A stretch of DNA of 64,000 bases from the NCBI GenBank assembly GCA_037974665.1, contig CM075777.1, forward strand, positions 15,337,001 through 15,401,000, given 5' to 3'. The position numbers and the translations under genes are program-made. Positions 15,646 through 62,563 of the stretch are shown here, piece by piece; the stretch's first letter is position 1, and the number at the start of each line of letters is the position of its first letter. The notes beneath the pieces are model-generated. The model was not told the DNA's origin and made no database searches. It worked only from the letters and a program-made list of their open reading frames with translations. The DNA comes from Ehretia macrophylla (taxonomy: Eukaryota > Streptophyta > Magnoliopsida > Boraginales > Ehretiaceae).

Positions 15646-17206
15646 ATGAAGAAAACTAATGCGGCAGCGATTGCTTTTGCATTTGGTAGCTCAAGATTTT
15701 TCTCTTCCGCCAAACTAAGGTACATTTGTTCTTCCCTATATTTTTACAAATCACCGCTCCATTTCATTAAAATCAAGATATGGGTTTGAATCCATTAAGG
15801 ATGTTGATGATGCTATTTCTCTATTTCATCGAATGGTTCGAATGAGACCTAAGCCTCCCGTTGAACAATACAATAAACTACTGACTGTTATGGTGAAGAT
15901 GAAACATTATTCGTCTGTTGTTTCTTTGTTCAAGAATATGCGCATTTTGGGTATTCCTGTTGATGAAGTTACAATGAATATTGTGATAAACTGTAATTGC
16001 CGTATGAAAAGTGTCGATTTGGGTTTTGGAATCTTAGCCTGCTTTTTCAAGCTTGGGCATGTACCTGATGTCACTACTTACACCACTCTAATTAAGGGGT
16101 TGTTTTTGAAAGATAAGGTTGTTGAGGCCGTAGAGCTATTCAAAAAGTTGATCAGAGAGAAACTTTGTGAGCCGACATACAAACAAGGCGGTTGAGCTGC
16201 TCAGGGTATTGGAAAAAGGAGATTGTAAACCAATCATTGGGGCGTATAACACTGTTATTGCTAGTCTATGTAAAGATAGAATGGTAGATGATGCTATGAA
16301 CCTCTTATCCGAAATGATTGATAACGGCATTCCACCAAACGTTGTCACCTACAATTCGTTAATTCAAGGATTGTGCAACTTTGGCCGATGGAGTGAGTTT
16401 ATAGAAGTATTGAGTAAGATGGTTCAATACAAAATATCTCCAGATTTATATACATTTAATATTATTATTGATGCACTATGTAAGGGCGGGCTAGTAAAAG
16501 ATGCAGAGAATGTATTAAAAATCATGATCCAGAGGGGTGTGCATCCTGACAAAGTTACATATGGCGCACTCATGGATGGATATTGTTTGCAAGGCCGGCT
16601 AAATGAAGCAGAAAGAGTTTTTGAACATATGATGGCTGAAGGCTTGAAGCCTGACATTATTCAATATAACATTTTATTGAATGGATTTTGTAAAAATAAG
16701 AAAATAGATGATGCTATGTGCCTGTTTCGACTGATGGCTTGTGAGGATATGCAGTTGGCAGGTGTAGTTCCAAACCTTTTCACTTACGGTATTATGTTGG
16801 ATGGACTTTGTAAGAATAAACACATTGAAGAAGTTTTGGCCTTTTTTTGTGATGTCGAGTACAAGGGACTAGTTCACGATATTCGTATTTACAATATCAT
16901 AATTGATGGACTGTGCAAGAGTGGGAAACTTGATGCTGCTCACGATATGTTCAACAATCTTGCTTCCAAAGGGTTGCATCCAACTGTTACGACATACAAT
17001 ATAATGATAAAGGGACTTTGTCAACATATGTTTTTGGAGGATGCGAGAAGGTTTTTGAGAAAATGGAAAATTACGGTTGCTTGCCAGATGAAACTACTTA
17101 CAATGTTATTGTCCGAGGATTTCTAAAGCAGGGTATCTCTCATGATGCGATGATGTATCTTGAGCAAATGGTAAGATACGAGGTTGTACCCTGTTTGAAT
17201 TGTTGA
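15646..17206 (+). pseudogene. RFL-type PPR pseudogene, copy A
   Basis: The start is the ATG of MKKTNAAAIAFAFGSSRFFS, the same leader as copies B, D, E and G and probably a mitochondrial presequence. A small deletion near 15.72-15.76 kb shifts the frame before the RYGFES motif. P-class motifs then run from EQYNKLL onward. About 47 bases are missing at 16,178 (after LCEP), shifting the frame again. At about 16,740 some 30 codons, most of PPR motif 10, are lost in frame. A one-base loss near 17,048 breaks motif 13. The last 60 or so codons are replaced by 3'-flank DNA. RFL proteins bind mitochondrial RNA, but this copy cannot make a full protein. A truncated 319-codon frame (16167-17126) remains without its own ATG leader. 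Confidence 0.85.
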
Positions 17207-21810: not shown

Positions 21811-23885
21811 ATGAAGAAGAGCAACACAGCAGCTGCTTTTATTACTTTTGGCAGCTCAAGATTTCTCTCTTCACCTAAATGAGGTACACTTACATCTACA
21901 GGTCTTTTCTTTATGCACCCACTAATTTTCTCATCACCTCTTCCATGTATTACAACCTACCGCTCCTTTTCACTAAAATCAAGATATGGGTTTGAATCCA
22001 TTAAGGACGTTGATGATGCTATTTCTATTTTCCATCGAATGGTTCGAATGAGACCTATGCCTTCCGTTGTAGAATACTGTAAACTACTGACTGTTATTGT
22101 GAAGATGAAACATTATTCTACTGCTGTGTTTTTGTTCAAGAAAATGCGCATTTTGGGTATTCCCGTTAATGAGTATACAATGAGTATTGTGATAAACTGT
22201 TATTGCCATATGAAATGTGTCGATTTGGGTTTTGCTATCCTAGGCTGCTTTTTCAAGCTTGGCCATGTACCTAATGTCACTACCTACAGCACTCTAATTA
22301 AGGGTCTGTTCTTGAAAGATAATGTTTTTGAAGCTGTGGGTTTATTCAAAAAGTTGATCAAAGAGAAACTTTGTGAGCCAAATGAAGTTACTTTTGCCAA
22401 TGTATTAGACGGATTGTACAAATCAGGATATACAAAGAAGGCAGTTGAGCTGCTCAGGGTATTGGAGAAAGGAAATTGCAAACCTACTATCGAGTCGTAT
22501 AATACTATCATTGATTGTTTATGTAAAGATAGAATGGTAGATGATCTATGAACCTCTTATCGGAAATGATTGACAAGGGCATTCTGCCTGATGTTGTCAC
22601 CTACAGTTCGTTAATTCAAGGATTGTGCAATTTTGGCCGGTGGGATGAGGTTACACTGTTATTGAATGAGATGGCTGAGTATAAATTATTTCCAAATTCA
22701 TTTACATTTAATATTATTATTGATGCACTTTGTAAGGAAGGGTTGGTAAAAGATGCAGAGAATGTATTACAAATTATGATCCGAAGCGGTGTGCATCCTA
22801 ACATAGAAGAGATTTCCAGCTATTGACTCTAATAAGACTAATAGCCGTACCGCAGAAAGAAGGTCAACCTCACCTCGAAATGATTAAGAAGACGACCCTC
22901 GCTGTGGCTCATCATCATCGAGAGGGAGCCCCTTGCACGGTGAATCGAAGAGAGGATTGACATGTCGAGATTATGCTGGATTATACACGAATATAGCGCA
23001 CTAATGGATGGATATTGTTTGCAAGGCCGGTTAAATGAAGCAGAAAAAGTTTTTGAACGAACGATGGCTGAAGGCTTGAAGCCTGAAATCACTATGTATA
23101 ACATTTTACTGAATGGATATTGTAAAAATAAGAAAATAGATAATGCAATGTCCCTGTTTTAACAAATGTCTCGTCAAGGGTTTGTAGCCAGAACTGATAC
23201 TTATAACATCATAATACAGGGATTGTTCCGTATAGGTAAATGTAAAACTACACAAAACCTTTTTGAGGATTTGCAGTTGGCAGGTGTAGATCCAAACATT
23301 TTCACTTACGATATTATGTTGGATGGGCTTTGTAAGAACAAGCACATTCAAGAAGCTTTGGCCTTTTTGTGTGATATTGAGTGCGAGGGACTAGTTCACC
23401 ATATTTCTATATTCAATATCATAATTGATGGATTGTGCAAGAGTGGGAAACTTGTTGCTCAAAATATGTTCAATAATCTTGCTTCCAAAGGATTGTATCC
23501 AGATGTTAAGACATATACTATAATGATAAGTGGGCTTTGTCAACAAGGGTTCCTGGAGGTTGCAAAGAAGCTTTTTGATAAAATGGAAAAAAACGGTTGC
23601 TTGCCAGATGGAGTTACATACAATGTTATTGTCCAAGGATTCCTAAAGTAGGGTATCTCTCATGATGCGATGGTATATCTCGAGCAAATGGTCAAAAGAG
23701 GTTTCTCACCTTATGCGTCCACATTTTCCATCTTGATAGATCTACTCCCAGCAGAAGGTCATGATCCTTTGTTCCAAAATATGATTCAAAAATTGGTTCC
23801 AAGTGATAAAAGAAGTCTCCAAGATTCACATGTTGCTTTAGCTTCCTCTCTTTGACATGAGATGTTGATAGTTGCAAAGACGTAA
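21811..23885 (+). pseudogene. RFL-type PPR pseudogene, copy B
   Basis: It starts at MKKSNTAAAFITFGSSRFLS. An in-frame stop (CGA to TGA) follows at codon 24, after which the frame continues through RYGFESIKDVDDA and the first PPR motifs. A two-base loss near 22,545 shifts the frame, and foreign DNA of about 183 bases interrupts motif 8 at 22.81 kb. Later the frame has TAA after AMSLF, TAG after VQGFLK and TGA after ALASSL. The final AKT-stop matches copy F. About 14 motifs can be traced. This is a clear pseudogene of the mitochondrial RNA-binding RFL family and is unlikely to give a functional protein. Confidence 0.87.
22807..22989. other. Foreign insert within PPR-B
   Basis: It lies between ACATAG and the resumed GCGCACTAATGG of motif 8, where sister copies have only about ten bases. 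Its core (inverse of CGATTCACCGTGCAAGGGGC, then CTCCCTCT) recurs in inverse orientation at 27,611-27,622 plus 28,079-28,137, where it is itself split by a solo LTR. It is a repeat of unknown class. Confidence 0.6.
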
Positions 23886-24454: not shown

Positions 24455-24829
24455 GGCAAAGGAATATTGTGATAAACTATTATTGCTGTAAAAACAATGT
24501 CCATTTCGGTTTTGCAATGTTAGCCTGCTTTTTCAAGCTTGGCCATATACCTGATTTGACTACCTTCAACACTCTACTAAAGGGGCTGTTTGTAGAAGAT
24601 AAGATTGTTGAGGTAGTGGAATTATTAAAAAACTTGAGCAGAGAGAATTTTGTGAGCTTGATGAAGTTATTTTCATGGCTGTATTCGATGGACTCTGCAA
24701 ATCCGGAAATACAAGAAAGGCGGTTGAGCTGCTCAATGCCTTGGAAAAATGAAATTGCATACACGACAAGAAAGCATATATCATTGTTGTTGACAATTTA
24801 TGGAAAGATAATAGAATAGATGATATATA
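24455..24829 (+). pseudogene. RFL-type PPR fragment, copy C
   Basis: Frames read NIVINYYCCKNNVHFGFAML, then ACFFKLGHIPDLTTFNTLLKG. A one-base slip follows near 24,650, and then text corresponding to DGLCKSGNTRKAVELLNALE, a stop, and a remnant of DRMVDDA (as DNRIDDI). This covers only PPR motifs 2-5 of the family (about 125 codons). Neither end carries a start or the remaining motifs. It lies within the 3' flank of copy B and is more diverged than the other copies, so it is probably an older remnant. Confidence 0.85.
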
Positions 24830-30282: not shown

Positions 30283-32074
30283 ATGAAAAAGAGTAACGTA
30301 GCAGCTGCTTTTGCAATTCGTAGCTCCATAACTTTTTTCTCTTTAGCTAAACAAGGTACATGTGTTCCTTCCTCGTTTTCACATAAAACAATTGTTACTC
30401 TACAACACAATAAATTACTGACTGTTATGATGAAGATGAAACATTATTCGGCTGTTGTTTCTTTGTTCAAGAATATGCGCATTTTGCGTATTCCTGTTGT
30501 TGAATATACAATGGCTATTACATGTGATAAACTGTTATTGCCGTATAAAACGTGTCGATTTGGGTTTTGCAATCTTAGGCTACTTTTTCAAGCTTGGTTG
30601 TGTACCTGATGTCACTACCTGCAACACTCTCATTAAGGGTCTGTTCTTGAAAGGTAATGTTTTTGAAGGTGTTGGTTTATTCAAAAAGTTGATCTCACAG
30701 AAAATTTGTGAGCCAATTGAAGTTTCTTTCTCGACTGTACAAGGCGTGTTGTGCAAGTCAGAACATACAAGCAAGGCGATTGAGCTGCTCAGGGCATTGG
30801 AGAAAGGAAATTGCAAACCAACAGTCGAGGCGTATGACACTGTTATTGATAGTCTATGTAAAGATAGAATGGTAGATGATGCTACTAACCTCTTATCCGA
30901 AATGATTGATAAGAGCGTTCCACCAACTGTTGTCACCTACAATATGTTAATCCAACGATTGTGTATACAGAAAATTGATGCTAATTACGTAATTTTGGCT
31001 TGTGATGTGAGTTTAAAGAAATATCAAGTGAGATGGTTCGTTACAAAATATCTCCAACTTTATATACATTTAATATTATTATTGATGCACAATGTAAAGA
31101 AGGGTTAGTAGAAGATGCAGAAAATATATTCCAAATCATGATCAAGAAGGGTATGCACCCAGACTTAATTACATATGGTGCACTAATGGATGGATATTGT
31201 TTGCGTGGCTAGCTAAATGAAGCACAAAGAATTCTTGGATGCATGATGGATGATAGCTTGAAGCCTGACATTCTTCGATATATCATTTTATTGAACGGAT
31301 ATTGTAAACATATAAAAATGGATGACGCAATGTTCCTATTTCGAAAGATCTCTCATCAAGGGTTGGTAACTGCGAGTGGTACTTATAATATCATGATACA
31401 AGGATTGTTCTGCATAGGTAGATGTGATATTGCACAAAAATTTTATGAGAATATGCAGTCAACAATTGTAGTTTTAGACATTTTCACTTACGATATTATG
31501 TTGGATGGGCTTTGTAAGAACAAGCACTTGAAAAAGCTTTGGTTTTTTCTTGTGATGTCGAGTGCAGGGGACTAGTTCACCATATTCTTATCTACAATAT
31601 CATAATTAATGGACTATTTCGAGAGTGGGAACTTGATGTTGCTCACAATATGTTCAATAATCTTGCTTTATAAGGGTTGCATCCAAATGTTACGACATAC
31701 AATATAATGGTAAAGATGTTTTGTCAAGAAGAGCTGCTAGAGGAGGCAAAGACCTTTTTTTGTGAAAATAGAAGAAAACGGTTGCTTTCCAAATGAATGT
31801 ACTTACAATGTTATTGTTTGCGGATTCCTAAAGCACAGACTCTGTCATGAGGCGATGATGTATCTGGAAAAAATGGTGAAATGAGGTTTCTCACTTGATT
31901 TGTCTACATTTTCTATATTGATACATCTACTCCCAACGAAAGGTCAGGATCCTTTATTTCAAAATTAATATGATTCAGAAATTGGTTCTAAATGATAAAA
32001 TAAGTCTCCAAGTTTTAGGCGTTGTTTTACGTTTCTCACTTCAACAGGAGATGTTGACAGTTGCAATGACGTGA
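30283..32074 (+). pseudogene. RFL-type PPR pseudogene, copy D
   Basis: It starts MKKSNVAAAFAIRSSITFFS. The segment that should hold RYGFESIKDVDDAISLFHRM is deleted, joining the leader directly to HNKLLTVMMKMKHYS. A small insertion near 30,515 shifts the frame. Motifs 2-6 then read through to about 30,960, where another break occurs within motif 6. Motifs 7-11 can be followed with a stop in CLRG-stop-LNEAQR and a shift after CKNKH. Text continues in fragments to the terminal TGA. RFL family membership is clear, but no functional protein is expected. Confidence 0.85.
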
Positions 32075-35702: not shown

Positions 35703-37574
35703 ATGAAGAACAGTAACAAAGTAGCTGTTATTATTGCTTTTGGTGGCTCAAGATTTTTTTCATCACCTAAACGAGGTATATATATTCTTTTCTCATCACG
35801 TTTCCATACTTGTATAAACCACCGCTCATTTTCAATGAATTCAACATTTGGGTTTGAATCTATTAAGGATGTTGATGATGTTGTTTCTCTTTTCCATCAA
35901 ATGGTTTGAATAAGACCTGTGCCTTTTGTTGAACAATACAATAAACTACTGACTGTTGTGGTGGGGATGAAACATTATTCAGCTGCTTTTCTTTGTTTAA
36001 GAATATATGCATCTTGGGTATTCCTTTTGACGAATGTACAATGACTATTGTTATAAACTGTTATTGCCTTATGAAACGTGTCGATTTGGGTTTTGCAATC
36101 TTCGGCTGCTTTTTCAAGCTTGTCTATGCACCTGATGTCACTACCTACAACACTCTAATTAAGGGGCTGTTTTTGAAAGATAAGGGTGTTGAGGTTGTGG
36201 ATCTATTCAAAAAGTTGATCAGAGAAAAACTTTGTGAGCCAAATGAAGTTACTTTCTTGACTTTACTAGACGGATTGTGCAAATTAGGACATACAAACAA
36301 GGCGGTTGAGTTGCTCAGGGTATTAGAAAAAAGAAATTGCAAACCAACCGTCAAGGCATATATCACAGTTATTGATGGTCTATGTAAGGATGAAATGGTA
36401 GATGATACTATCAACCTCTTAGTTAAAATGATTGACAAGGGCATTCCACCAGATGTTGTCATCTACAATTCGTTAATTAAAGGTTTGTGCAATTTTGGCC
36501 GGTGAGATAAGTATAAAGAAGTATTGAATGAGATGTTTCATCACGAAATATCTCCAAGTTTATATAGATTTAATATTCTTATTGATGCACTATATAAGCA
36601 AGGGTTAGTAGAGGATGCAGAAAATGTACTGCAAATCATGATCCAAAGGGGTGTACGTCAGTACATAGTTACATATGGTGCATTGTTGTATGGGTATTGT
36701 TTGCAAGGCCAGCTAAATGAAGCACAAAGAGTTTTTGAACATATGATGGCTGAAGGCTTGAAGCCTGATATTACTGAGTATAACATTTTACTGAATGGAT
36801 TTTGTAAAAATAAGAAAATATATAGATGATGCGATACCCCTGTTTTGACAGATGTCTTGTCAAGGGTTTGTAGCCAGAACTGATACTTATAACATCATGT
36901 TACAAGGATTGTTCTGCATAGGTAAATGTAATATTGCGCAAGAACTATTTGAGGATATGCAATTGACAAGTATCGTTCCAAACATGTACACTTATTGTAT
37001 TATGTTGAACGGGCTTTAGAAGAACAGGCACATCGAAGAAGCTTTGTCATTTTTTTATGACATCGAGGCCAAGGGATTAGTAAGTTATATTTCTATCTAC
37101 AACATCATGATCGATGGATTATGCAAGAGTGGGAAACTCGATGTTGCTTGGAACATGTTCAATAAACTTGCTTCCAAAGGGTTGCATCTGGATGTTAGGA
37201 CATACAATATAATGATAAATGGGCTCTGCCAAGAAGAGCTGCTCAAGGATGCGAAAAAGATTTTTGATAAAATGGATCAAAATGATTGCTCGCCAAATGA
37301 AGTTACTTGTAATATTATTATCCGAGGATTTCTAAAGCAGGGTCTCTGTAATGAGGTAATGATGTATCTTGAACAAATGTTAAAAAGAGGTTTCTCACTT
37401 AATGCATCCATATTCTCCATCTTGATGGATCTACTCTGTGCAGAAGGTCAGGATCCTATGTTTCAGTATATCATTCAAAAATTAGTTCGGAATAATAAAA
37501 GAAGTCTTCAAGTTTCACGTACTGATTTATGTTCCTCACTTCAACATAAGATGTTGACAGTTACAAAGACGTGA
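35703..37574 (+). pseudogene. RFL-type PPR pseudogene, copy E
   Basis: It starts MKNSNKVAVIIAFGGSRFFS and continues FGFESIKDVDDVVSLF. A TGA follows where other copies have CGA, then a one-base loss near 35,985. One frame covers motifs 2-6 (35993-36505) until TGG becomes TGA after NFGR. The same frame resumes for motifs 6-9, until a two-base TA insertion near 36,823. The rest carries TGA after AIPLF and TAG within the GLCK site of motif 11. The last 176 codons (37044-37574) are clean and end in TVTKT, matching the family C-terminus. It has about six breaks over nearly full length, so it is one of the better-preserved dead copies. Confidence 0.87.
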
Positions 37575-47550: not shown

Positions 47551-47965
47551 GCAGTGATTGATATGTGAGAATGTGTTTAAAATTGAATGACATTCCCAAT
47601 TCTATTTTAATTCCTATGTTTGGTATGAGGGAATGAACTTGGGAATGTCATTCCCATATACATGAGAATAACCATTCAAGACCAAATACATGAGAATGAG
47701 AATCCCATTCTCATATACATGAGAATAACCATTCCAGACCAAATACATGGAAATGACTCATTCCCATGTGTTTGGAATAAACTTGACTACCATACTCTTA
47801 TATAACATAACTTTTATAAATAATTTGTTTTACAATTAATAATTATTATTACGAAAATTATAATGAAAATAAAAATAAAATAAAAAACAAAAATAAAAAA
47901 TAATAACAGTGATTAAATAATAATAAAAATAATAATAATTAAAAATACAATAATATTATTATGAA

Positions 47966-48005
<40 letters not shown>

Positions 48006-48847: not shown

Positions 48848-48888
<41 letters not shown>

Positions 48889-49048
48889 TGTTGTTATTAT
48901 TATTGTTATTTTTATTTTTATTTTGTTATTAATAATAATTATTATTTTTATTTTTATTTTTTATTTTTATTATTATTTATTGTTGTTGTTGTTATTATTA
49001 TTATTATTTATTATTATTTTTATTTTGTTATTATTATTATTATTATTT

Positions 49049-49081
<33 letters not shown>

Positions 49082-49316
49082 ATTATTATTAATATTATTA
49101 TTTATATTTATATTATTTACGGTTATGTTTATATTTATTCTTATTTTTAATACTATAATAATAAAAGGGTAATACTGTCATATTATACAAGTTATTCACA
49201 TTATTATTCTTAATTCCTAGAGCATATCAAACACGTCATTCTCATTTCTAAGTTCATTCTATTCCCAATTTAATTCCATTAATGTCCAAATCTATTTCAG
49301 TATATCAATCGCTACC
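47551..49316. mobile_element. MITE-like element filled with AAT/ATT repeats
   Basis: The ends GCAGTGATTGATAT and the inverse of ATATCAATCGCTACC form short inverted repeats, followed by GGGAATG/CATTCCC words on both sides. The paralogous site in block 2 (about 50,720-50,745) has no insertion. The interior is a trinucleotide-repeat palindrome and is itself duplicated. A clear target duplication was not found. Confidence 0.6.
47850..49165. repeat. AAT/ATT trinucleotide foldback, duplicated
   Basis: Two units of about 650-700 bp (47.82-48.46 and 48.47-49.17 kb) each begin TTTGTTTTACAATTAATAAT and end TTTACGGTTATGTTTATATT. In each unit the left half is AAT-rich and the right half ATT-rich, so each can fold into a long hairpin. 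A TTG triplet run lies at about 49,051-49,080. Apparent poly-Leu/Ile open frames here are artefacts. Confidence 0.9.
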
Positions 49317-49591
49317 TTAGGGCTATTTAGCTTTTACATAGGGACAATGGGGCTGCAACGCTCTTTAACCCCGGATTCCTTTTAAAATATAAGATATTAT
49401 GAAGATATTTTTAGTCTGAAATATCAATTAGACCATTACTACATGTAAACCTAACAAACTATAGAAGCTCAATCATAGAGACTAGTACAAGTAAAGTTCA
49501 TGAGGTTTATAGTTGCTCACCTATCCGCCATGGGTCCAAATCTCCTGCGGGAATGATTTGAAAGATCCAAAACTCCTTTCTTTTTTTAGTT

Positions 49592-51038
49592 AACACCATT
49601 ACATAAGATTACATAAGATTATGAGTTATTTCATGTAGTACAAATTAAATTTAAGATAGAAGAGTAGATTAATCTATCATACTGATTTCAGACCTGGCCT
49701 TGGTTTCCTATGCCTCTTTGTTGTAAATTTCAAAGCTGTAAATTTTTTTGACTAGGAGCATATATACTCCTATGTACTTGAGAAAGTTGCAATGAAATTT
49801 TCCTTTGCTAATTGAGTAAAAAAAAAAAAGCTGGCCTTGGTCTTCGCTGCTCTTGTGCCATGTCATAAGCCTTCAACAATTGACTTTAATCATGAGTCAC
49901 GCATGAATGTGATGAGATAAATCAAGATATTCAAGTGGATGTTGGAGAATCTAATTGTTCCACATGTCTAAATAAGACATTCAAGATTAGTAATTGAGGA
50001 GAACTTCTTTGGTCAGTCTGGACTGACCATCAGTCCATTCATATATAAGTGGATCCCACAAAATGTGGAGTCCACCCCATGTCTCTATGGCTGGTGGTCA
50101 ACTTGGATTGTTCTAAGAATTTTCAGCAATTGAGATCTTAGCCTACTCTACTTTATACCAATTGACTTAGATTAATCTATCACATACGTGATTGAATTAC
50201 CTTGTATGTTACAAACATAAGCATTTTTTTATGATGATTATTCCATCATGTTGTTGAAGAAATCTCTAGAAATTATCTATTTGCAAATCCAACATCACCC
50301 TTTCGTATTACGCTATAATATCAAATGTTTACCATCTCATAGAAGGTCAACAACATTTTATTAATGCGCATTTACCTACACTAAAAAAATTCATCCAACA
50401 CATTATTATGGGTCTTATTATGCGGGTGCAATCCTCCATGACAATAATAGTATTCACTCATATACGAGTTATCTCTTGGGAACAACTTCACAACATTATT
50501 CATTTTCTTACACTTACAATATGATTAATCAATGTCATTGCTAATAAAATATCTTATATATAAAATAGTGATTTATCATGTGCTCTTACAACACTATTGA
50601 GATTTAAAATTATACTTTGGGTATAAATATACTATCATTTTACAGAAAAGTACTAATGGAGTATAACAAGATGAAATAATTTTGGTAACTCTAAAAAGGA
50701 ATGAGGTTATTTGGGATTTATTCATAAAACACTTAGGGTTATTTATCTTTTACCACATTTCCTAGTACAACGGTGGATGCACGTTAGAGACAGTGGGGGC
50801 TGCAGCGCTCTTTGACCCCAGATTCTTTTTAAAATATAAGATATTATAAAGATATTTTTAGTCTGAAATATTAATTAGCCCCTTACTACATGTAAACCTA
50901 ACAAACTATAAAAGCTTAATCATGGGGATTAGTGCAAGTAAAGTTCATGAGGTTTATAGTTGCTCACCTATCCGCCACGGGTCCGAATCTTCTGCGGGAA
51001 TGATTTGGAAGATTCAAAACTCCTTTCTTTTTTTAGTT
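49592..51038 (+). repeat. Tandem block 2 in the 5' flank of PPR-F
   Basis: It is colinear with block 1 from AACACCATTACATAAG to CTCCTTTCTTTTTTTAGTT, including the L1 tail, but lacks the AAT-rich element. The junction near 49,590 joins the block end directly to the next block start. Confidence 0.75.
49707..49831 (+). mobile_element. 5'-truncated L1 3' tail, second copy
   Basis: It is the same insertion as at 46529-46653, carried along by the block duplication. It is flanked by TGGCCTTGGTTT and TGGCCTTGGTCT. Confidence 0.65.
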
Positions 51039-51798
51039 ATTTTGTTGTTCATAGATTAACGAAAATGTGCAAAAGCTCTAGTAATTGAGGCTAAACAAAA
51101 CAATATCAGAGCCATAAAGATAAATTGTTTAATTTGGCAAAAGATTCACTCTCCATTCGGTCAGAGGAAATCTTTGCATGTTTCCTAATGAACCTGAAAA
51201 AAGGATAAAGATTCGAAATTAAACAGAAAAAAGAGATATCCACCGTAAAGTATCATTTGTGTTATCAAGTTATTATAAGCTTCCTTTAAGTTTGTTTAGT
51301 TTAGCCTGATTAATGGAATGGGTGATGGTGTAACTGACCACGTTACAAACAACTTTTTTTGTTTTCTGCCTTTTTTTTTTTTTTTTTGGTCAAGAGTTAT
51401 AGACAACATAAGAAATGATGTTTTGCCATTAGATTAGTCAGTTAGCATTCCTAATGTTTTGTGTTGTACTTTGTCAACTGAAATGTTGCTTCCGAAATTG
51501 GCTAATTGCTCGTGTGCCTATTAGTATGGTCTTTAAAATTAATTCTCCTCCTTTTATTAGTTGTATAAATATTTTAATTTAGAGACCAAAAATAAATAAA
51601 TAATCTGAAAAATATCTAGACCTATATTTGTCTTTATGTCATAGTTTACCCGGCAAACTTGTACCATGAGGGCTTAATTAAGAATTTTAAAACTTTAGGA
51701 GCTTAAATAGAAACGTGGACATCAGTATTGTATTTGTTTCAGAATCGATCCGGCTCAGATAATTGTTTACTCACCCAGGTACATCTATTCTTTCCTTT
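51039..51798 (+). other. 5' flank of PPR-F
   Basis: It matches flanks of B (21.27-21.70 kb) and G (60.50-60.63 kb), for example GGGGGCTTAATTAAGAA-type text and CAGAATCGATCCGGC. The TTGTTTACTCACCCA word is joined directly to GGTACATCTATTCTTTCC. In G these are separated by about 110 bases holding the leader and usual ATG. Confidence 0.6.
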
Positions 51799-53598
51799 AT
51801 GCACCCCCTACTAATTTTCTCATCACCTCTTCATACTATTACAACCCACCGCTCCTTTTCACTAAAATCAAGATTCGGGTTTGAATCCATTAAGGATGTT
51901 GATGATGCTGTTACTCTTTTCCATCGAATGGTTCGAATGAGACCTAAGCCTCCCGTTGAACGGTACAATAAACTACTGACTGTTATGGTTAAGATGAAAC
52001 ATTATTCGTCTGCTGTTTCTTTGTTCAAGAATATGCGCATTTTGGGTATTCCTGTTGATGAATATACGATGACTATTGTGATAAACTGTTATTGTCGTAT
52101 GAAACGTGTCGATTTGGGTTTTTCAATCCTAGGCTGCTTTTTCAAGCTTGGCCATGTACCTAATGTCACTACCTACAACACTCTAATTAAGGGGGTGTTA
52201 TTAAAAGATAAATTTTTTGAGGCCGTAGAGTTATTCAAAAAGTTGATCCGAGAGAAACTTTGTGAACCAAATGAAGTTACTTTCGGGACTGTATTAGACG
52301 GATTGGGCAAATCAGGACATACAAACAAGGCGGTTCAGCTGCACAGGATAATGGAGAAAGGAAATTGCAAACCCGGCACTGTTGCATATAGCTCTGTCAT
52401 TGATAATTTATGTAAAGATAGAATGGTAGATGATGCTATGAACCTCTTATCCGAAATGATTGATAAGGGCATTCCACCAGATGTTGTCACCTACAATTCG
52501 TTAATTCGAGGTTTGTGTAGTTTTGGCCGATGGAATGAGGTTGAACTGTTATTGTATAAGATGGTCAATTACAAAATCTCTCCAAATTTACATACTTTTA
52601 GTATTTTGGTGGATGCATTTTGTAAGGAAGGATTAATAGAAGATGCAGAGAATGTATTACAAATTATGATCCTGAGTGGTGTGCATCCTGACATAGTTAC
52701 ATATGGCGCACTAATGGATGGATATTGTTTGCAAGGCCGGTTAAATGAAGTAGAAAGAGTTTTTGAACATTCGATGGCTGAAGGCTTGAAGCCTGACATT
52801 ACTCAATATGACATATTACTGAATGGATATTGTAAAAATAAGAAAATAGATGATGCGATGTGCCTGTTTCGACAGATGCCTCATCAAGGATTGGTTCCTG
52901 ACACAGTAAGTTATAGTATCATGATACAGGGATTGTTCCGCGTAGGTAAATGTAATACTGCACAAAATCTTTTTGAGGATATGCAGTTGGCGGGCGTAGT
53001 TCCAAACATTCACACTTACTGTATTATGCTAGATGGGCTTTGCAAGCACAAGCCTATTGAAGAAGCTTTGTCATTTTTCCATGATGTTGAAGGCAAAGGA
53101 TTAGTTCGTTATATTTCTTTCTACAGCATCATAATCAACGGACTATGCGAGAGAGGGAAACTTGATGTTGCTCGCAATATGTTTAACAATCTTGCTTCCA
53201 AATGGTTGCATCCAAATGTCACGACATACAATATAATGATAAAGGGGCTGTGTCAACATATGTTCCTGGAGGATGCGAAGAAGCTTTTTGAGAAAATGGA
53301 AAATAATGGTTGTTTGCCAAATGAAATTACTTATAATGTTATTGTCAAAGGATTCCTAAAGCAAGGTATCTCTCAAAATGCAATGATGTATCTTGAGCAA
53401 ATGGTCAAAAGAGGTTTATCACCTTATTTGTCTACGTTATCAATATTGATACATCTACTCCCCGTAGACGGTCAAGATCCTTTGTTTCAGAATATGATTC
53501 AGAAATTGGTTCCAAATAATAAAAGAAGTCTCCAAGTTTCTGGTACTGCATTATGTTGCTCACTTCAACAAGAGACGTTGAAAGTCGCTAAGACGTGA
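51799..53598 (+). CDS. RFL-type P-class PPR protein, copy F, intact frame
   Basis: The first in-frame ATG gives 599 residues; upstream, a TAA closes the frame just before 51763. The N-terminus MHPLLIFSSPLHTITTHRSF is rich in hydrophobic, Ser and Arg residues and could still be a mitochondrial presequence, but the MKKSN leader of the sister genes is deleted. After FGFESIKDVDDAVTLFHRMV come 14 tandem 35-residue P-class motifs (about residues 53-543), one of 36 residues, then a degenerate fifteenth and a tail ending LKVAKT. No DYW or E domain is present. RFL proteins bind single mitochondrial RNAs and can restore male fertility by processing chimeric transcripts. It is intronless, as usual for the family. 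Expression cannot be judged from the sequence. Confidence 0.88.
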   Translation: MHPLLIFSSPLHTITTHRSFSLKSRFGFESIKDVDDAVTLFHRMVRMRPKPPVERYNKLLTVMVKMKHYSSAVSLFKNMRILGIPVDEYTMTIVINCYCRMKRVDLGFSILGCFFKLGHVPNVTTYNTLIKGVLLKDKFFEAVELFKKLIREKLCEPNEVTFGTVLDGLGKSGHTNKAVQLHRIMEKGNCKPGTVAYSSVIDNLCKDRMVDDAMNLLSEMIDKGIPPDVVTYNSLIRGLCSFGRWNEVELLLYKMVNYKISPNLHTFSILVDAFCKEGLIEDAENVLQIMILSGVHPDIVTYGALMDGYCLQGRLNEVERVFEHSMAEGLKPDITQYDILLNGYCKNKKIDDAMCLFRQMPHQGLVPDTVSYSIMIQGLFRVGKCNTAQNLFEDMQLAGVVPNIHTYCIMLDGLCKHKPIEEALSFFHDVEGKGLVRYISFYSIIINGLCERGKLDVARNMFNNLASKWLHPNVTTYNIMIKGLCQHMFLEDAKKLFEKMENNGCLPNEITYNVIVKGFLKQGISQNAMMYLEQMVKRGLSPYLSTLSILIHLLPVDGQDPLFQNMIQKLVPNNKRSLQVSGTALCCSLQQETLKVAKT

Positions 53599-54458
53599 TA
53601 TCTAGGTTTTTGCAGCTTTGTTATATTTCTATAATTTATAATTTGAATATTCTTTTACAACATCTTTTTCATAAATGATTAGTTTATTATTCTAAATTTG
53701 ATAACTAAGATTTTAAAAAAACAAATAGATGTGATGACCCATAATATAGATGAAAAAATTGGTATAGGAGAAGATCCTTACGTCGAATAGAACCCAAGGG
53801 TTATTCTGGTGGTAGTGGTCCTCTTATTATTGGAGATTATACTTTAACTTACTTGGTACATGTCTTGAGTCGGGCCGTTGTATTTCGGGGATTTTGGTTA
53901 ACATTCAGCTGTTAGGCCAACGAGGGGATGCCGACGTATCTCATCCGATGTCAATGGGTAGTGGTTAATTCAATTTATGTCTAACGAGCTAATTGAGTGA
54001 GAATGTTTCTCTAAATTAGCCAAAAAAAAAAAAATTCATACATAGACAAATTACACCTAATTCTTTGCTTTCCATCTCATGAAAGATCAACAACGCTTCC
54101 ATCAATGCAACCTTTTTACCAAAGCGCAAGTAGCATGAAACAAGTAGTTATACGTATTTGAAACATGGTCTGCCACTTTTATGGCACAAAGAAGTTTTTG
54201 TGCATTAGCACATTTACCTATAGTAAAACAAATTCAAAAAAAAAAAAAAAGAGTAAAAATTCCCTCGGACATTCTATGTAAGTACTAATATTGGGGTTCA
54301 ATATCTACACGACAATATACACTAATATTCAATCCTTTACAAGACATTTCTGGGAACAACTTCAAAGCATTTTATTTTCGTACACTAATAATATGCATTT
54401 ATCAGTATGCCATTGCTAATATGTTAAGTATAACAACAGTGATGTATCAAGTGCTCTT
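53599..54458 (+). other. Short 3' flank of F and 5' flank of G
   Basis: The F 3' flank matches G for only about 40 bases (TTTTTGCAGCTTTGTTATAT), then changes to unrelated text. From 54.0 kb, 5'-flank words appear (AAAGATCAACAACG, TGCCATTGCTAAT, TGATGTATCAAGTGCTCTTA). The flank breaks off at 54,458, where the LINE nest begins. No gene was recognised. Confidence 0.45.
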
Positions 54459-57400
54459 AAGAAAAGATGGAACTTACACAGTTAAGAGTGGGTATAGAAG
54501 TGTAAATAATAATAACAATAATAATCAAATAGGCCTCGGATAGGGACAATGCCCAAGGTAAAAACCTCATGATTTCCTTCTCAGTTTTTCGTGTATATGG
54601 TAAAAAATCTACTATATAAAGAAGGGTGATAAAATGAAGGAGTAATATATAGTATTACTCTTGTGATAATTACGATATTCAAAAATATCGAAGCAGCTAT
54701 TCGAGACCTTTTATCTAAAGCTTAAGCAAGGTCGTACACAGGCGGGGAACCAGTCTAAAACCCCTGAACCCCCAGATGTTTAGTTTTGCAGCTTGGAACA
54801 TCAGGGGCTTTAATAGACCCCTGAAACACAAAGATGTACATTTTTTTTGTAAATAATAAGAAGCTCAGTGTCATCTGCCTCCCTGGAACCAAAATCAAAG
54901 AGAGCAGCTCTGGAGATCTTATGAAAAGAAAATTTTGTGATTGGGAACTGGTGCATAATTACGATTTCTCTCACAGAGGTAGAATTTGGATCCTTCCTCA
55001 CAAAAATCGAGTCAAAATCTCAAGATTGGCAGCTACAGCTCAATCCATTCTGACCACTGTTCGCTTACTGTTCGAATGGACAGAGTACATTGGCAAAGCG
55101 AAGCCTTTTAAATTCTTCAATGCTTGGACTCAACACGAAAATTATGAGCAAGTGGTGCGAAGAGCCTGGAACACTAGTGTTAATGGTGCTCCTATGTATA
55201 GATTGGTGCAGAAGCAAAAGCAACTTAAGGCTGAACTCAGAAGATTTAATGCCCAATATTTTTCTAATCTATCATCCGGGATTGAGAACACTCGTAAGGA
55301 GCTCTTATCAGTCCAATCTCTTATTCTCAATGGCCAAAATTCCGACACTCTCTACAGAAAGGAGAAGGAGCTAATCCATAATCTCGAAGAATTGCCTTAA
55401 ACAAATAGCTAAAGTGAAATGGCTCAAGATGGTGATAGTAATATTGCCTACTTTCACAAGGTAATTAAAGGGAGAAGAACTACAAACTCTTTTAGAAGTT
55501 TGATCTCCTTGGAGGGTAACAGGTTGAATTCGGAGGAGGAAATTGCTAAGGAAATTGTTGGGTACTACAAAGCTCTTCTGGGTTCTAACAGGAACATTCA
55601 AGCCCCAATTCTATTTCCGAAAGCGAATGCGAGAGTCTCACATCCCCAATTCTGAATGAGGAGATCAAACAGGCCATGTTTTCTATCCACAGTGATAAGA
55701 GCCCTGGTCCTGAAGGCTTTACTTTGCATTTTTATAAATCAGCTTGGAATTTGATTGGCAGCGAAGTTTGTAATGCCATCAAGTCTTCTTTAGATTCCGG
55801 TAAACTGTTGGGTGAATTAAACTGCACAATCATCACATTAATCCCCTAATGTGACAATCCAAGTACTGTGAGTGATTTTAGACCAATTTCTTGCTGTAAC
55901 ACCCTGTATAAATGTCTCTCTAAAGTTATTGCTAACCGGTTGAGGAGCACCCTCTCGAGCATTATCTCAAATAAGCAGACAGCCTTTGTTGAAGGTCGGA
56001 GAATGCTGGATAATGTGTTAGTTGCTCAAGAAATTATCAGGGATTATGGCAGAATGAGCAAGAACCATAAGTGCACACTTAAAGTTGACATCCGCAAAGC
56101 GTTTGATACTATCAATTGGAGATTTATTCTGAATGCTATGAGGGCTTTCGGCCATCCCAACAAATTTGTAAATTGGGTTAGGATGTGCATCTCCACGACC
56201 AGATTCTCCATTTCTATCAATGGGCATTTGGAAGGATATTGAGGGAACTAACAGGTTGTGCCAAGGGGATCCGTTATCCCCGTATTTGTTTGTCATAGCG
56301 ATGGAAGTTTTGTCTCAAATCTTCAAGCTCACTGCTAGTCGCGATGACTTCACTTATCGTCTCAAGTGCAGCAAAATTGGTCTCACTCACTTGAGTTTTC
56401 CAGATGATCTTCTGGTTTTCTTCAAAGGCAACATTAATTCTGCTATTGCAATCAGAGAAGCTTTGGGGTTGTTTTCTAGAATGTCGGGTTTGAACATTAA
56501 TCAAGAGAAGAGCTCAATTTTCTTTGGTGGTTGTCCCCCTCCAGTTAAGAAAATCATTTGCAACACTTTAAACATCAGTGAAGGTAATTTGCCGATGAGA
56601 TACTTGGGAAGTCCTCTTGTCCCTGGCAGAAATAACGCAGCAGTGAGGCTTGGTGTGCCCAGTAAAATCATTGCAAAAACGAAACAGTGGACTAGAAGAT
56701 TCCTTTGGTGTGTAGGGCATTTGCAACTGGTTAAGCATGTCCTCTACAGTGTCTTTAACTTCTGGTGCGCAGCCTTTATTTTGCCGAAAGGCGTATTTAA
56801 GGAAGTTCAGAAGAGGTTGTCTTCCTTTCTCTGGGGTAATTAGGATGACCACACGAGAGCTAAAGTTTCATGGGCAGAGATTAAACCTCTGGATGAACTA
56901 GGCCTTGGGATTCGGAATCTTGAAGAGGCTAACAAGATTGCAATTCTGAAACAATTTTGGCATATGTATACTGATTCCAAGTCACTTTGGGGCACTTGGA
57001 CTAAGAAATTCTGTTGAAGGACCAAAGTATTTGGAGTATGGCTATTCCTTCTGACTGCTCATGGGCGTGGAAGAAAATTTTGAATCTCAGGAATGATGCA
57101 GCTCCTTTTATTCAGCACGTGATTGGTAATGGAGACAATACCTTTCTGTGGAGGAATAATTGGCATCCCCTTGGTGAGCTTGCTCAAATTGTCCATCCTG
57201 ATCTTATCAATGGGTCCAGGCTTGGTACACAGTGTAAAGTAAGTGAAATCATTCGTAATGGCTGTTGGCGTTGGCCAAGAAATCTTTCTTACCACAGTTC
57301 TAACATTCCAGGTATGTTTTTCAATGTTGATGGAGTTGATTCAATTAAGTGGACTATTGGTACGAATGGAACTTTCCACACTCACTCCTCCTGGGAAGCA

Positions 57401-58275
57401 CTGAGAACCAAATATCCCAAAGTCCAGTGGTTCCATTTACTTTGGAAGAAGAATTTTATTCCCAAGCATAGCTTTTGTTGTTGGCTAGCTATCCTTGATA
57501 GGTTGTCGACGAAAGATCGCATGATTGGTTGGGGAATGCAGGTGAATGGGCTGTGAACTCTTTGTCATATGGTGTTGGAAACTAAAGAACATTTATTCTT
57601 TGAGTGCTCTTTTAGTCGAAAAATCTGGTTTGCATGTGCAGAAAGGGCGAAAGCTGGTAGTATGGGCTATCACTGGAATCAGGTCTTTAGTAAATGTTGT
57701 ATCTTGGCCAAGAAAAAGTCTCTTCAGGCGTCCATTGTTAAGCTGCTTTTCTCTTCATGTGTTTATCATCTTTCGAAGGAGCGCAATGGACGAATTTTCA
57801 GGAATGAATTTGGGAATGTTGAACAGGTGATAAGAAGGATCACGGATGACGTGCGAGCTAAAATGCTGTTCGGAAAGAAATTTCAAAACAATAGTATTAA
57901 CAGGGATCTTTGTAATAGTTGGAATCTCTGTGAGTTAATTTCTTAGTTTCCTCTTTTTAGTCTAGTCGTTGTATTTTTTATCATGTTCACGGCTTTGCCA
58001 AGTTTTTTGTTGTTGAATAGAATTGATCTTGCTGACCCAGCAAAAAAAAAAAAAAGGAATAATAATCAAGCTTGTGGAAGCTCATTTTACCAAGTATCAA
58101 AGGAAACTCTGGCAGGTGATTTGGAAAATTAAGGTGCCTTTACAAATGATCCATTTGATTTTGAAGGCATGTAAAAATGTTATCACAACTGAGGCAAACC
58201 AATAGAGAAAGTACTCTACAGAGTCTCCTTTATGCAAAATTTGTAATCAAGAGGCTGAGACATTAAAGCAGGTTG
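54459..58275 (+). mobile_element. L1-type LINE fragment, split by another LINE
   Basis: The left piece (54459-54528) encodes KDGTYTVKSGYRSVN, the usual start of the C-terminal region of plant L1 ORF2. The right piece (58070-58275) continues LWQVIWKIKVPLQMIHLILK and CKICNQEAETLKQ, the reverse-transcriptase zinc-binding domain (zf-RVT). It was a short LINE remnant before the second LINE landed in it. One stop (NQ-stop-RK) is visible. Confidence 0.7.
54529..58057 (+). mobile_element. L1-type LINE with decayed ORF2
   Basis: It is flanked by a 12-bp target duplication AATAATAATCAA (54517-54528 and 58058-58069) and ends in an A run. ORF1 is absent. ORF2 starts with an endonuclease remnant (FAAWNIRGFNRPLKHKD) that has lost most of its middle. 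It continues with QDGDSNIAYFHKVIKGRRTT, then reverse transcriptase (DFRPISCCNTLYKCLSKVIA, KVDIRKAFDTINW, RLCQGDPLSPYLFVIAMEVL). The catalytic box reads FPDD in place of FADD or YADD. The C-terminal zf-RVT region (57014-57946) has ETKEHLFFECSFSRKIW. At least five stops or frameshifts are seen. It is inactive but well preserved, so fairly recent. Confidence 0.88.
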
Positions 58276-59555
58276 TCACGGATTAACAGAACCCCCGCAC
58301 TTGGGCGTCTAGTTGGCTAACCTCTAGTTATACGGGATGCACTTATGCCTATTATTTACTTACACGTGATATTCTTGATTTAGGTATTGCTTTGCTATGT
58401 TGAATTTTCTGGACTAGTTGTATTTTTGTTATTTATGTTTGCTGACCTGTTACGGCTAGCTGGCCCATCCTTAATCTCTAGAGATTGGGTGCAGTATGAC
58501 GAAATATGCGCTCAACCTGTGAAAATGTTCTATTGTTGCCCTTGGACTCATACTGCAAGAGGAGTCCATTTCTATCCTAAATAATTAGATTCTTTATGTA
58601 GTCCAAGATTGTTCGATATCAATAGGGGTAAAAAAAACAATCATCTTTCTTTTTTCTTTTTTCTTTTTGTTAGAAAGCAAACAATCACCTTTTTTTATTG
58701 TCAGAAAGTAAACAATCATCTTTAAAATGTTAGTTCATTTAAAAGGAATGAATTCTTTTATGTTTTAAGGACAATTCCTAGACCCTATAAAATAGAACAA
58801 GATGCAATCCACAACTAGATGGCCTACAATGCTAATTTTCCACACCAAATGGTTGCAACTTGGAATAGAAAAGTACCTTAGGTGTGATTCAAGAAATTAA
58901 TTTTTTTTATTTTTTTTGGGCAAGCTTAAGGAACCAGATGGAATCAACTAATACAAGGCGTTATTAAGATTAACACTGGTGATAGGTTAACTTCTAAGGC
59001 AACTATAAGTAGGGATTAGTCAAATTGATGATTAGTGCTGGTACTAGGAAGGCTCTTTGTGAGTTCCCATTACAAGTAGAAGAGTTAGCCGTCAATAATT
59101 CTTAGTTACTTGTGAACATAGCAGGTTCTGATCATAGAGACTAATGCAAGTAAAATTTTGAAGGCTTATAGTTGCTCCTTTTTGAAAATTTAAGAGTATC
59201 ATTAAAGATACCAACCTTCCTTGTTAGTTTAGACTAATTAATAGAATGGAAAATAGTATCACGGACTCGGTTTCAAGCAACTTAAGAAAAGGTATTTGCA
59301 TTAAATTGATTAATTAACATTCCAAACACCTTAAATTGTGTTGTGTCGGTTAGAATTTCCAAAATAGACTAATTGCAGAATTTCCAAAATAGACTAATTG
59401 CTCCTATACCTATTAATAGGGTCCTCGTAATTTTTCTTTTACTAATGAAACTTAACACACTGTTTAGAAATACTTGTGATGTGGAATTCATTTGATTTAT
59501 AAATAAATTCTTTTATTTGTACGATAAAATAAATAAGCAACTAATTTGGTGACTT
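58276..59555. other. Intergenic DNA
   Basis: Unrecognised sequence (58.28-58.6 kb), simple T-rich runs (58.64-58.72 kb), then flank words related to the B and F 5' flanks (ACTAATGCAAGTAAAATTTT, AGGCTTATAGTTGCTC). No gene was recognised. Confidence 0.35.
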
Positions 59556-60234
59556 GGGCTCCGTTTGTTTGCTGTAAAATATTCTTCCGGAAAACATTTT
59601 CCTACTTTTATGGTGTTTGGTAACACCGAAAAATTGGTCAACCGGAAAACATTTTCCAGTCAAAAATGGTGGGCTACTTTTTGGAGATTTTCCGGTGTTT
59701 GGTAACACCGGAAAATTGGTCAACCGGAAAACATTTTCTGGTCAAAAATGGTAGACTACTTTTTAGAGATTTTCCACTGTTTGGTAACACCGGAAAATTG
59801 GTCAACTGGAAAATATTTTTCGGTCAAAAATAACGGCTAGTTCAAAATTTGGAAAAATATTTTCATTTCTTTGGGAGATGAAAACATTTTTCGGAACTTA
59901 ACCACCCTTATTTTATGTGTATTTTTTTTTGTAAATCTCATGTCAGAAAATATTTTTTATTGTACATCCAAACACAAGAAAATATTTTCCAGTATTCTAT
60001 TTTCCAAAAAAATATTTTCATCTAATAAGTTATTTTACGAAAACAAACAGAACTCAGGAAAATATTTTCCTCTGAAAACATTTTTCAAGAAAACATTTTC
60101 CACTAAAAACATTTTCCATAAGCAAGTTATTTTACAGTAAACAAACGAAGGAAAATATTTTATTTTTCAAGAAAACATTTTCCACAGAAAATATTTTCCA
60201 CAAGTAAGTTATTTTACGGCAAACAAACGGAACC
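59556..60234. mobile_element. Inverted-repeat element with internal GGAAAACATTTTCC repeats
   Basis: Terminal inverted repeats are GGGCTCCGTTTGTTTGCTGT and the inverse of the right end, AGGTTCCGTTTGTTTGCCGT. Inside, roughly 110-bp units with GGTGTTTGGTAACACCGGAA and CAACCGGAAAACATTTTC repeat about three times on the left, and GAAAACATTTTCC palindromes recur on the right. No coding frame is present. It is probably a non-autonomous hAT- or Mutator-like element. Confidence 0.65.
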
Positions 60235-60684
60235 TTGAAATTATAAATTCAACCTCATGAGCAAATATTTGACCCGAATTTACAAATATTAAAATTTTAA
60301 TTTATTTAAAAAGTGCTTCCAAACGAAAAAGGCTAGTTTTGCAAATGAATTATGCAAAATTCTATAGAATTCATTTGTTCTCAATTTGAAAAGACCAAAA
60401 AATAAAATAAACAAACATACAATCCAAAAAATGTCTAGGTCGCAATTTATCTTTTTTCAATTGTAGTAGGTAAATACCAGGCAAACTTGAAAAATTTCAC
60501 CCAAAATCGAGACAAGTTAGCTATGGGGGCTTAATTAAGAAATTTGCAAGTTTAGGGGCTTAAATAGAAGCGTGGACATCATCAGTATTGTATTTTCAGA
60601 ATCGATCCGGCGCGGATCTTGTTTGCTCACCCATTTTTCTTTTTTCATTTCTCCTTTCTATTTTCCCCAAATTGGAGGCTGAAG
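60235..60684 (+). other. 5' flank of PPR-G
   Basis: GCTTAAATAGAAGCGTGGAC and CAGAATCGATCCGGCGCGG match the F flank near 51.70-51.75 kb. A TATTTTCAG before this word could be a 3' splice site of a leader intron, but that is unproven. Confidence 0.5.
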
Positions 60685-62563
60685 ATGAAGAAGAGCAACA
60701 CAGCAGCTGCTTTTATTGCTTTTGGCAGCTCAAGATCTAGACGAGGTGCATCTACTCTTTCCTTTATGCACCCACTACTAATTTTCTCATCACCTCTTCA
60801 TACTAGTACAACCCACTGCTCCTTTTCACTAAAATCAAGATATGGGTTTGAATCCATTAAGGATGTTGATGATGCTATTTCTCTATTCCATCGAATGGTT
60901 CGATGAGTCCTAAGCCTTCAGTTGTAGAATACAATAAACTTCTGACTGTAATGGCCAAGATGAAACATTATTCGGCTGCGGTTTCTTTGTTCAAGAATAT
61001 GCGCATTTTGGGTATTCCTGTTGACGAATATACAATGGCTATTGCAATCAACTGTTATTGCCATATGAAACGTGTCGATCTGGGTTTTGCAATCTTAGCC
61101 TGCTTTTTCAAGCTTGGCCATGTACCTAATTTCACTACCTACAACACTCTAATTAAGGGTCTGTTTTTGAACGATAAGTTTGTTGAGGCCGTAGAGTTAT
61201 TCAAAAAGTTGTTCAGAGAGAACCTTTGTGAGCCTGATGAATTTACTTTCGCGACTGTATTGGACGGTTTGTGCAAATCAGGACATACAAACAAGGCTGT
61301 CGAGCTGCTCAGGGTATTGGAAAAAGGAAATTGCAAACCAACTGTCGAGTCGTATAACACTGTTATTGATAGTCTATGTATGGATAGAATGGTAGATGAT
61401 GCTATGAACCTCTTATCTGAAATGATTGACAGGGACATTCCACCAAACATTGTCGCCTACAGTTCGTTAATTAATGGATTGTGTAATTTTGGCCTGTGGG
61501 ATGAAGTTGAACTGTTGTTGAATAAGATGGCTGATTACAAAAACTCTCCAGATTTACATACTTCTAGTATTTTGGTGGATGCATTTTGTAAGGAAGGATT
61601 AATAGAAGATGTAGAGAATGTATTACAAATTATGATCCAGAGCGCTGTGCATCCTGACATAGTTACATATGGTGCACTAATGGATGGATATTGTTTGCAA
61701 GGCCGGTTAAATGAAGCAGAAAGAGTTTTTGAACGTTTGATGGCTGAAGGCTTGAAGCCTGACATTACTCAATATAACATATTATTGAATGGATATTGTA
61801 AAAATAAGAAAATAGATGATGCAATGTGCCTGTTTTGACAGATGCCTTGTCTAGGGTTGGTACCTGGCGCAGAGAGTTATAGCATCATGATATAGGGATT
61901 GTTCTGTGTAGGTAAATGCGCTACTGCAGAAAAACTTTTTGAGGATATGCAATTGACAGGCGTAGTTCCAGACACTTTCACTTACGGTATTATGCTAGAT
62001 GGGCTTTGCAAGCACAGACCCATTGAAGAAGCTTTGTCCTTTTTCTATGATGTCGAGGGCAAGGGATTAGTTCGTTATATTTCTTTCGACAGTATCATGA
62101 TCAACGGACTATGCAAGAGAGGGAAACTTGATGTTGCTAGCAATATGTTCAACAATCTTGCTTCCAAAGGGTTGCATCCAAATGTTACGACATACAATAT
62201 AATGATAAAGGGGCTTTGTCAACATATGTTCTTGGAGGATACGAAGAAGCTTTTTGAGAAAATGGAAAATAGCGGTTGTTTGCCAAATGAAATTACTTAT
62301 AATGTTATTATCCAAGAATTCTTAAAGCAGGGTATCTCTCATGATACGACGATGTATCTCGAGTAAATGGTCAAATGAGGTTTCTCACCTGATTCGTCTA
62401 CATTACCATATTGATACATCTACTCCCCGTAGAAGGTCAGGATCTTTTGTTTCAGAATATGATTCAGAAATTGGTTCTAAATGATAAAAAAAATCTCTAA
62501 GTTTCTGGTGTTACATTATGTTCCTCACTTCAACAGGAGACGTTGAAAGTTGGTAAGACATGA
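60685..62563 (+). pseudogene. RFL-type PPR pseudogene, copy G
   Basis: It starts MKKSNTAAAFIAFGSSRSRR and continues through RYGFESIKDVDDAISLFHRM. A single-base loss at about 60,902 (CGAATGAGACC to CGATGAGTCC) shifts the frame. From 60903 a 311-codon frame covers PPR motifs 1-9, closed by CGA to TGA after CLF. The same frame then has TAG at 61893 (CAG in F) and continues 155 codons to TAA (CAA in F) at 62364. Further breaks lie in the tail. It is the closest relative of F in this window by eye, including the RYIS motif 11/12 junction. Read-through is not expected, though a truncated nine-motif product from the internal ATG at 60903 is conceivable. Confidence 0.87.

Follow-up and report, generated by a model that had tools for sequence, protein, structure and literature searches.

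Comparison with described restorer-like clusters

In pentatricopeptide repeat (PPR) proteins, each repeat reads a single RNA base through its residues 5 and 35. The closest described systems to the locus treated here, a 64,000-nucleotide stretch of Ehretia macrophylla DNA that carries seven PPR relatives (hereafter the window), are the restorer-of-fertility-like (RFL) genes of other plants. The accessible part of the study of the barley chromosome 1H cluster (PMC7380019) describes tandem P-class PPR genes, 9 of 26 being possible pseudogenes, with diversifying selection at positions 5 and 35, and also at 2, 7, 8 and 29, that is stronger in clusters. For rice RFL genes, the portion of PMC5075784 available to us likewise reports diversifying selection at 5 and 35 and finds SD/SN pairs to be common. 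As relayed in the accessible text of PMC5138203, Fujii et al. 2011 compared PPR genes of 11 angiosperms and found RFL selection to be focused on residues 1, 3 and 6 of an older numbering, and the accessible text of a Brassica/Arabidopsis comparison (PMC5080715) describes gene conversion among RFL genes.

The window (GCA_037974665.1, CM075777.1; C14:15337001-15401000 in an assembly that comprises 20 contigs and 1.58 Gb) was searched with its longest open frame and yields seven PPR relatives, A to G, all on the + strand. Judged from sequence, the cluster likely belongs to the RFL group; several of the listed homologues carry names after At1g12700, At1g62670 and At1g63330, which we take to be Arabidopsis RFL genes. 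As far as the accessible text of the published studies goes, the locus resembles that of barley in its tandem P-class PPR genes, some of them broken, and the rice genes in that SD/SN pairs are common. It differs from the barley report in that positions 7 and 8 are slow; position 29, which barley lists, is fast here too, though our control (see below) suggests a general tolerance at 29. Further differences from the barley and rice sets lie in the plant itself, in the presence of seven copies within 64 kb, six of them broken, and in an F that is without the usual start region, and the cluster departs from the 11-angiosperm comparison in that most copies are broken. As diversifying selection on residues 5 and 35 is already on record for RFL proteins, the cluster is a new example of it, one that has broken and open copies side by side. 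No publication uniting RFL pseudogenes, positive selection and the PPR code was found, and since subscription journals were thinly covered this says little.

We consider it very probable that RNA specificity has been under diversifying selection in this RFL-like tandem cluster, whose open copies change fastest at positions 5 and 35 of the repeat. An ongoing contest of restorer-like PPR genes over their RNA targets would produce such a pattern, and its signature is legible even in the broken copies.

Code positions in the open paralogues

Open relatives of F are found around the window. All 15 loci from C14:15.31-16.15 Mb, picked from PPR hits, carry a relative with 75-79% protein identity to F, and 13 of these 15, the loci having been chosen for open frames, have frames of 520-632 aa; shorter frames of 93-371 aa, probably broken, are also among the PPR hits of this interval. 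In all, 20 loci on the same chromosome were taken by place from the PPR hits, mostly for long open frames. Fourteen open frames were aligned with F, and removal of L010, L018, L019 and L021 (98.6-99.8% identical to others) left ten plus F. Loci L015, L020 and L023, being broken or short, were excluded, as were L026, L027 and L028, which are too distant (50, 49 and 27% identity), and eight further loci, L001-L008, at 27-38% and more distant, were unused. L012, L014 and L024 end early and may be non-functional.

In these 11 open paralogues the ratio of nonsynonymous to synonymous rates (dN/dS, omega) is highest at position 5 (1.25) and second highest at position 35 (1.09) among the 35 positions of the repeat. 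Both positions exceed the exposed ones (p=9.5e-10 for 5, p=5.5e-8 for 35), a class defined by hydrophobicity in homologues and not by structure, so that position 5 evolves faster than other exposed positions rather than at an equal or lower rate; it is also faster than positions 22, 29 and 30 taken together (p=0.0043). The site model M2a is favoured over M1a (p=0.00029), and the mean posterior is highest at 5 and next highest at 35. Among positions 2, 5 and 35, which we take to be the RNA-contact positions in the present numbering, 13 of 42 sites have an M2a posterior above 0.5, as against 38 of 449 others.

Plain omega underrates selection at 5 and 35 because few amino acids are allowed there. 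An alphabet was defined for each position as the residues that reach a frequency of at least 3% among homologues from other plants, namely GNST at 5 and DNS at 35. For substitutions within this alphabet, omega in the open paralogues is 5.19 (confidence interval (CI) 3.47-7.78) at 5 and 4.53 (2.76-8.51) at 35, whereas for substitutions out of it the values are 0.37 and 0.39. In simulations with a true value of 1, the maximum reached was 1.90 at 5 and 1.86 at 35 (60 runs each), and over six alphabet thresholds from 0.5% to 8% positions 5 and 35 were the only ones above 1 at p<0.01, with values of 1.95-7.58. The open paralogues keep 134 of 153 residues at position 5 within four amino acids, and 127 of 151 at position 35 within three. 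The alphabet-restricted test distinguishes a switching of code residues from a loss of constraint, a distinction beyond the reach of plain dN/dS in this case, and selection for new RNA targets is the likely driver of the speed of 5 and 35 in the open copies. The original prediction, made from the letters of the window alone, had proposed diversifying selection on RNA specificity; it is partly supported, by in-alphabet rates several times the synonymous rate, whereas the plain omega remains near 1.

Substitution among the window copies

In a frameshift-aware alignment to F, every other copy shows at least one frameshift, and all of these except A have in-frame stops as well. Six of the seven copies are broken, whereas F stays open for 599 codons. 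The features are as follows.

15646..17200, + strand: copy A, a broken PPR gene whose body runs from 15737, with an ATG upstream at 15646 in another frame; 2 frameshifts, deletions of ~15 and ~30 codons, aligned body without in-frame stop
21811..23882, + strand: copy B, broken; body from 21913, with an ATG upstream at 21811; a frameshift, a ~180-base insertion at 22806-22991, stops at codons 358, 522 and 590 as numbered in F, and a further stop in the presequence
24466..24824, + strand: copy C, fragment of ~120 codons (motifs 2-5); 1 frameshift, 1 stop
30403..32071, + strand: copy D, broken; 5 frameshifts, 3 stops; N-terminal part unaligned (begins at F codon 55)
35703..37571, + strand: copy E, broken; an ATG upstream at 35703 shares the frame of the body; 2 frameshifts, 4 stops
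51799..53598, + strand: copy F, open frame of 599 aa; 14 PPR motifs and a degenerate 15th
51955..53427, + strand: motifs 1-14 of F, giving the register in which the rate tests were run (repeat positions 2, 5 and 35), in agreement with dPPR-U8A2 by alignment
60685..62560, + strand: copy G, broken; an in-frame ATG lies upstream at 60685; 2 frameshifts, 5 stops

Pfam finds PPR repeats along all of F, 13 of the 14 motifs being 35 aa long and one 36 aa, and alignment places the register in agreement with that of the designer protein dPPR-U8A2 (PDB 5i9d). The closest relative of F is G (89%). The protein matches are from plants, the best among the matches listed being mostly from asterids.

The rate tests used six window copies, fragment C being excluded, with frameshift-adjacent codons and 15 stop codons set as missing and the alignment of D codons 92-93 and B codons 299-301 set by hand from the window letters; omega was estimated with a codon model written for this analysis on a tree of the six copies. 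By mean pairwise amino acid difference over the 14 motifs, the highest of the 35 positions are 35 (0.651), 2 (0.547), 5 (0.533), 22 (0.451) and 29 (0.434), against 0.287 across all positions. When positions were shuffled within motifs, the observed value was attained in 11 of 20000 trials for position 5, 0 of 20000 for 35 and 6 of 20000 for 2, and the chance that these three would lead a random order is 1 in 6545. In the older numbering, 35, 2 and 5 are presumably residues 1, 3 and 6. If that numbering is right, the residues singled out by Fujii et al. 2011, as given in the accessible text of PMC5138203, are the top three of the window by raw difference.

The residues that the original prediction had read at position 5 of motifs 2, 4, 5 and 9 are correct in all 23 cases (the alanine of D in motif 2 stands directly ahead of a 4-base insertion), and the variation extends beyond these four motifs to 12 of the 14. 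The span it assigned to the copies, 51799-62563, covers F and G, whereas the remaining copies lie at 15.6-37.6 kb. Its claim that the neighbouring residues barely change is borne out at positions 6 (0.095, the slowest of the 35) and 4 (0.149), but not at position 3 (0.323), which is above average.

Within the window omega is 1.45 at 35, 1.36 at 2, 1.26 at 29, 1.04 at 22 and 0.95 at 5, while non-contact motif positions stand at 0.49. The dN/dS comparison that had been suggested as a check thus places position 5 fifth of 35, at the border of significance against the other exposed positions (p=0.052) and indistinct from 22, 29 and 30 (p=0.67), though well above its neighbours 3, 4, 6 and 7 (0.95 as against 0.34, p=0.00023). 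The contact class as a whole exceeds the other exposed positions (1.25 as against 0.61, p=1.3e-7), and the pooled Nei-Gojobori ratio is 1.40 at contact positions, with 0.39 at the remaining motif positions. Because decay draws all positions towards an omega of 1, the contact contrast is blurred in the window. When dead time is allowed for, or the less-dead branches alone are used, the plain omega of the contact class is marginally above 1: a dead-share model for the broken copies gives 1.33 for contact and 0.40 for the rest (contact against 1, p=0.035 with stop counts and 0.043 without them), and the branches of F and A with the internal ones give 1.60 (CI 1.09-2.29, p=0.019), position 5 alone being at 1.27 (p=0.50).

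Two further measures were not used. Nei-Gojobori ratios for single positions (0.77 at 5, 0.65 at 35, 8.96 at 2) are noisy because there are few synonymous counts per position, and the M1a/M2a comparison on the six window copies (p=0.023) was dropped as support since the favoured sites are not contact positions.

Relaxed constraint as an alternative

A plain contact omega near 1, in the window and in the open paralogues alike, is what neutral drift gives, and the excess at 5 and 35 might on this account be no more than the drift of exposed, unconstrained positions in decaying copies, with no positive selection. We regard this as improbable. Free drift would give values of ~1 both within and out of the alphabet, rather than the ~5 and ~0.4 observed, and it does not account for an in-alphabet omega significantly above 1 in the 11 paralogues or for the confinement of most of their residues to four and three amino acids. 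Positions 5 and 35 also rank only 18th and 19th of 35 in diversity (entropy) among 69 homologues of other plants, which are the proteins of 480-760 aa used from 120 listed of 543 matches. Long-term entropy as a test of tolerance was itself set aside: these ranks fit a small alphabet, but entropy is no rate.

An ordinary P-class PPR protein served as control. The first 66 listed identifiers of the At5g39710 group gave 56 relatives of 720-830 aa (median identity to the query 56%) with 13 motifs, which were located by a profile blind to positions 2, 5 and 35, orthology being assigned by rank and identity and not by tree. Here position 29 ranks first in variability and 22 second, 2 is 18th, 35 is 28th and 5 is 34th of 35. 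The At5g39710-type protein thus shares with the cluster its P-class repeats and the variability of 22 and 29, and differs from it in conserving 5 and 35, which are among its slowest positions. Variability at 22 and 29 is therefore common to both sets, whereas speed at 5 and 35 is confined to this gene group, an outcome that speaks for the predicted selection and not for a general laxity of exposed code positions.

Several observations nevertheless weigh against diversifying selection. The plain omega of the contact class has a CI of 0.99-1.55 in the window (1.25, p=0.058 for a value above 1) and is 1.01, or 0.88, in the open paralogues; there, position 5 at 1.25 is not significantly above 1 (p=0.14), position 2 drops to 0.69 (0.51 with segment trees), and none of the sites among the 11 sequences has an M2a posterior above 0.95. 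In the window the M2a sites are not focused on contact positions, 1 of 42 contact sites exceeding 0.5 as against 4 of 449 others. Moreover, the control is a single protein group, not matched to the cluster, in which amino acid difference across species is set against omega among paralogues, and the alphabets were drawn from the same family in other species.

Recombination and mutational hot spots

A second alternative is that recombination or gene conversion among the copies has made the tree wrong, so that contact residues merely seem fast. The segment trees do disagree in topology, and stops are shared off the tree, at codon 358 in B, E and G and at codon 538 in D and G. A wrong tree should, however, affect all 35 positions alike, since each motif contains them all, and the window ranking holds under segment trees. 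Contact differences also exceed those of other motif positions in 15 of 15 window pairs in pairwise counts that use no tree (p from 3e-9 to 0.009). In the open copies the in-alphabet excess persists with six segment trees, at 5.2 for position 5 and 3.05 for position 35 (down from 4.53), other positions reaching at most 0.94. We therefore judge recombination a very unlikely source of the pattern.

At the shared stops themselves, codon 358 is CGA in A, D and F and TGA or TAA in B, E and G, and codon 538 is TGA in D and G and AGA in B, E and F; stops common to non-sister copies suggest either gene conversion or repeated mutation.

Mutational hot spots such as CpG decay across codons 34/35 are a far-fetched source of the excess, for although D to N at 35 is a G to A change and a C ending codon 34 would create a CpG, that codon is seldom C-ended in open copies, removal of the three motifs in which it is leaves an in-alphabet omega at 35 of 3.99 (11 sites), and the commonest contexts of position 5 are without CpG (TCG and GCG codons occur three times each in the top 20 contexts).

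Decay and probable past selection in the broken copies

The excess of switching between code residues can be followed into the five broken copies, whose in-alphabet omega is 2.66 at position 5 (p=0.02) and 3.87 at position 35 (p=0.0006). Out of the alphabet, omega is 1.1 at 35, as against 0.37 in the open set, and 0.59 at 5. The in-alphabet share at 35 falls from 127/151 in open to 45/67 in broken copies (p=0.007), and at position 5 the fall from 134/153 to 55/67 is not significant. This pattern fits selection while the copies were alive, followed by decay. Non-contact omega is below 1 in 6 of 6 tips (0.35-0.59), and much of the divergence of the broken copies therefore arose under constraint. 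Under a joint model, the five broken tips have dead shares of 3-41%; stop counts alone give 0-45% for A, B, D and E and 114% for G, and as these exceed the joint-model shares the timing is rough. The original prediction had placed the selection before the copies died: the signal does persist in the broken copies, but F is an open frame with no stop, for which the claim is wrong, and open copies surround the window.

The copies would be, or would have been, imported into mitochondria, where they may help to silence harmful transcripts, such as those causing male sterility. Were a target transcript to vanish or change, the corresponding copy would lose its use and gather frameshifts and stops, and might then remain as a relic displaying the old switching of code residues (N/S/T/G at 5, D/N/S at 35). 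It is conceivable, if rather doubtful, that dead restorer-like copies are in this way a readable fossil record of past RNA targets. As the in-alphabet excess survives death and position 35 relaxes to neutrality out of the alphabet, broken RFL clusters in any plant could on this reading serve to count and date past conflicts with the mitochondrial genome.

Eight motifs can be read in both F and G, and although the two copies are 89% identical, different bases are predicted for them in 4 of these, ND and NN being assigned as we presume the code to run. Code pairs for these predictions were taken from the accessible part of PMC5075784. With F and G predicted to read different bases, the cluster offers natural variants for binding tests.

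Start region and state of copy F

Copies A, B, E and G have an upstream ATG with a related presequence behind it, which in E and G shares the frame of the body, and a related presequence is seen by eye at the start of all ten open paralogues used. This region, present in G, E and the open paralogues, is shortened in F, where a 111-base deletion (junction near 51777; compare G 60500-60860) took the upstream start codon and the first codons. The first in-frame ATG of F is at 51799 in the context TCCTTTATGCAC, which we take to be weak for plants. F has 0 stops, as against ~4.8 expected had it been dead throughout, and non-contact omega on its branch is 0.35 (CI about 0.24-0.50); F was therefore constrained during most of that branch.

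Surroundings of the cluster

On the same chromosome, PPR hits of equal score recur in pairs 206-226 kb apart (C14 15.73-15.87 Mb and 15.95-16.08 Mb), and the pairs L013/L018, L014/L019 and L017/L021 are 99% identical; the paired hits represent either a recent large duplication or uncollapsed haplotypes of the assembly.

Reverse-transcriptase pieces (Pfam RVT_1 and zf-RVT, 55868-57556) occur between F and G, with another piece at 43082-43507; in a Pfam search of ten further open frames of the window, only one reverse-transcriptase piece matched. An inverted collinear repeat of ~3.5 kb occupies 6184-9736 and 37743-41303 at 69-76% identity, and two open frames within it had no Pfam match. The stretch 46430-51085 is A/T-rich, with repeats at 47.8-49.2 kb that have a 1.1-kb direct repeat of 92% identity on their flanks.

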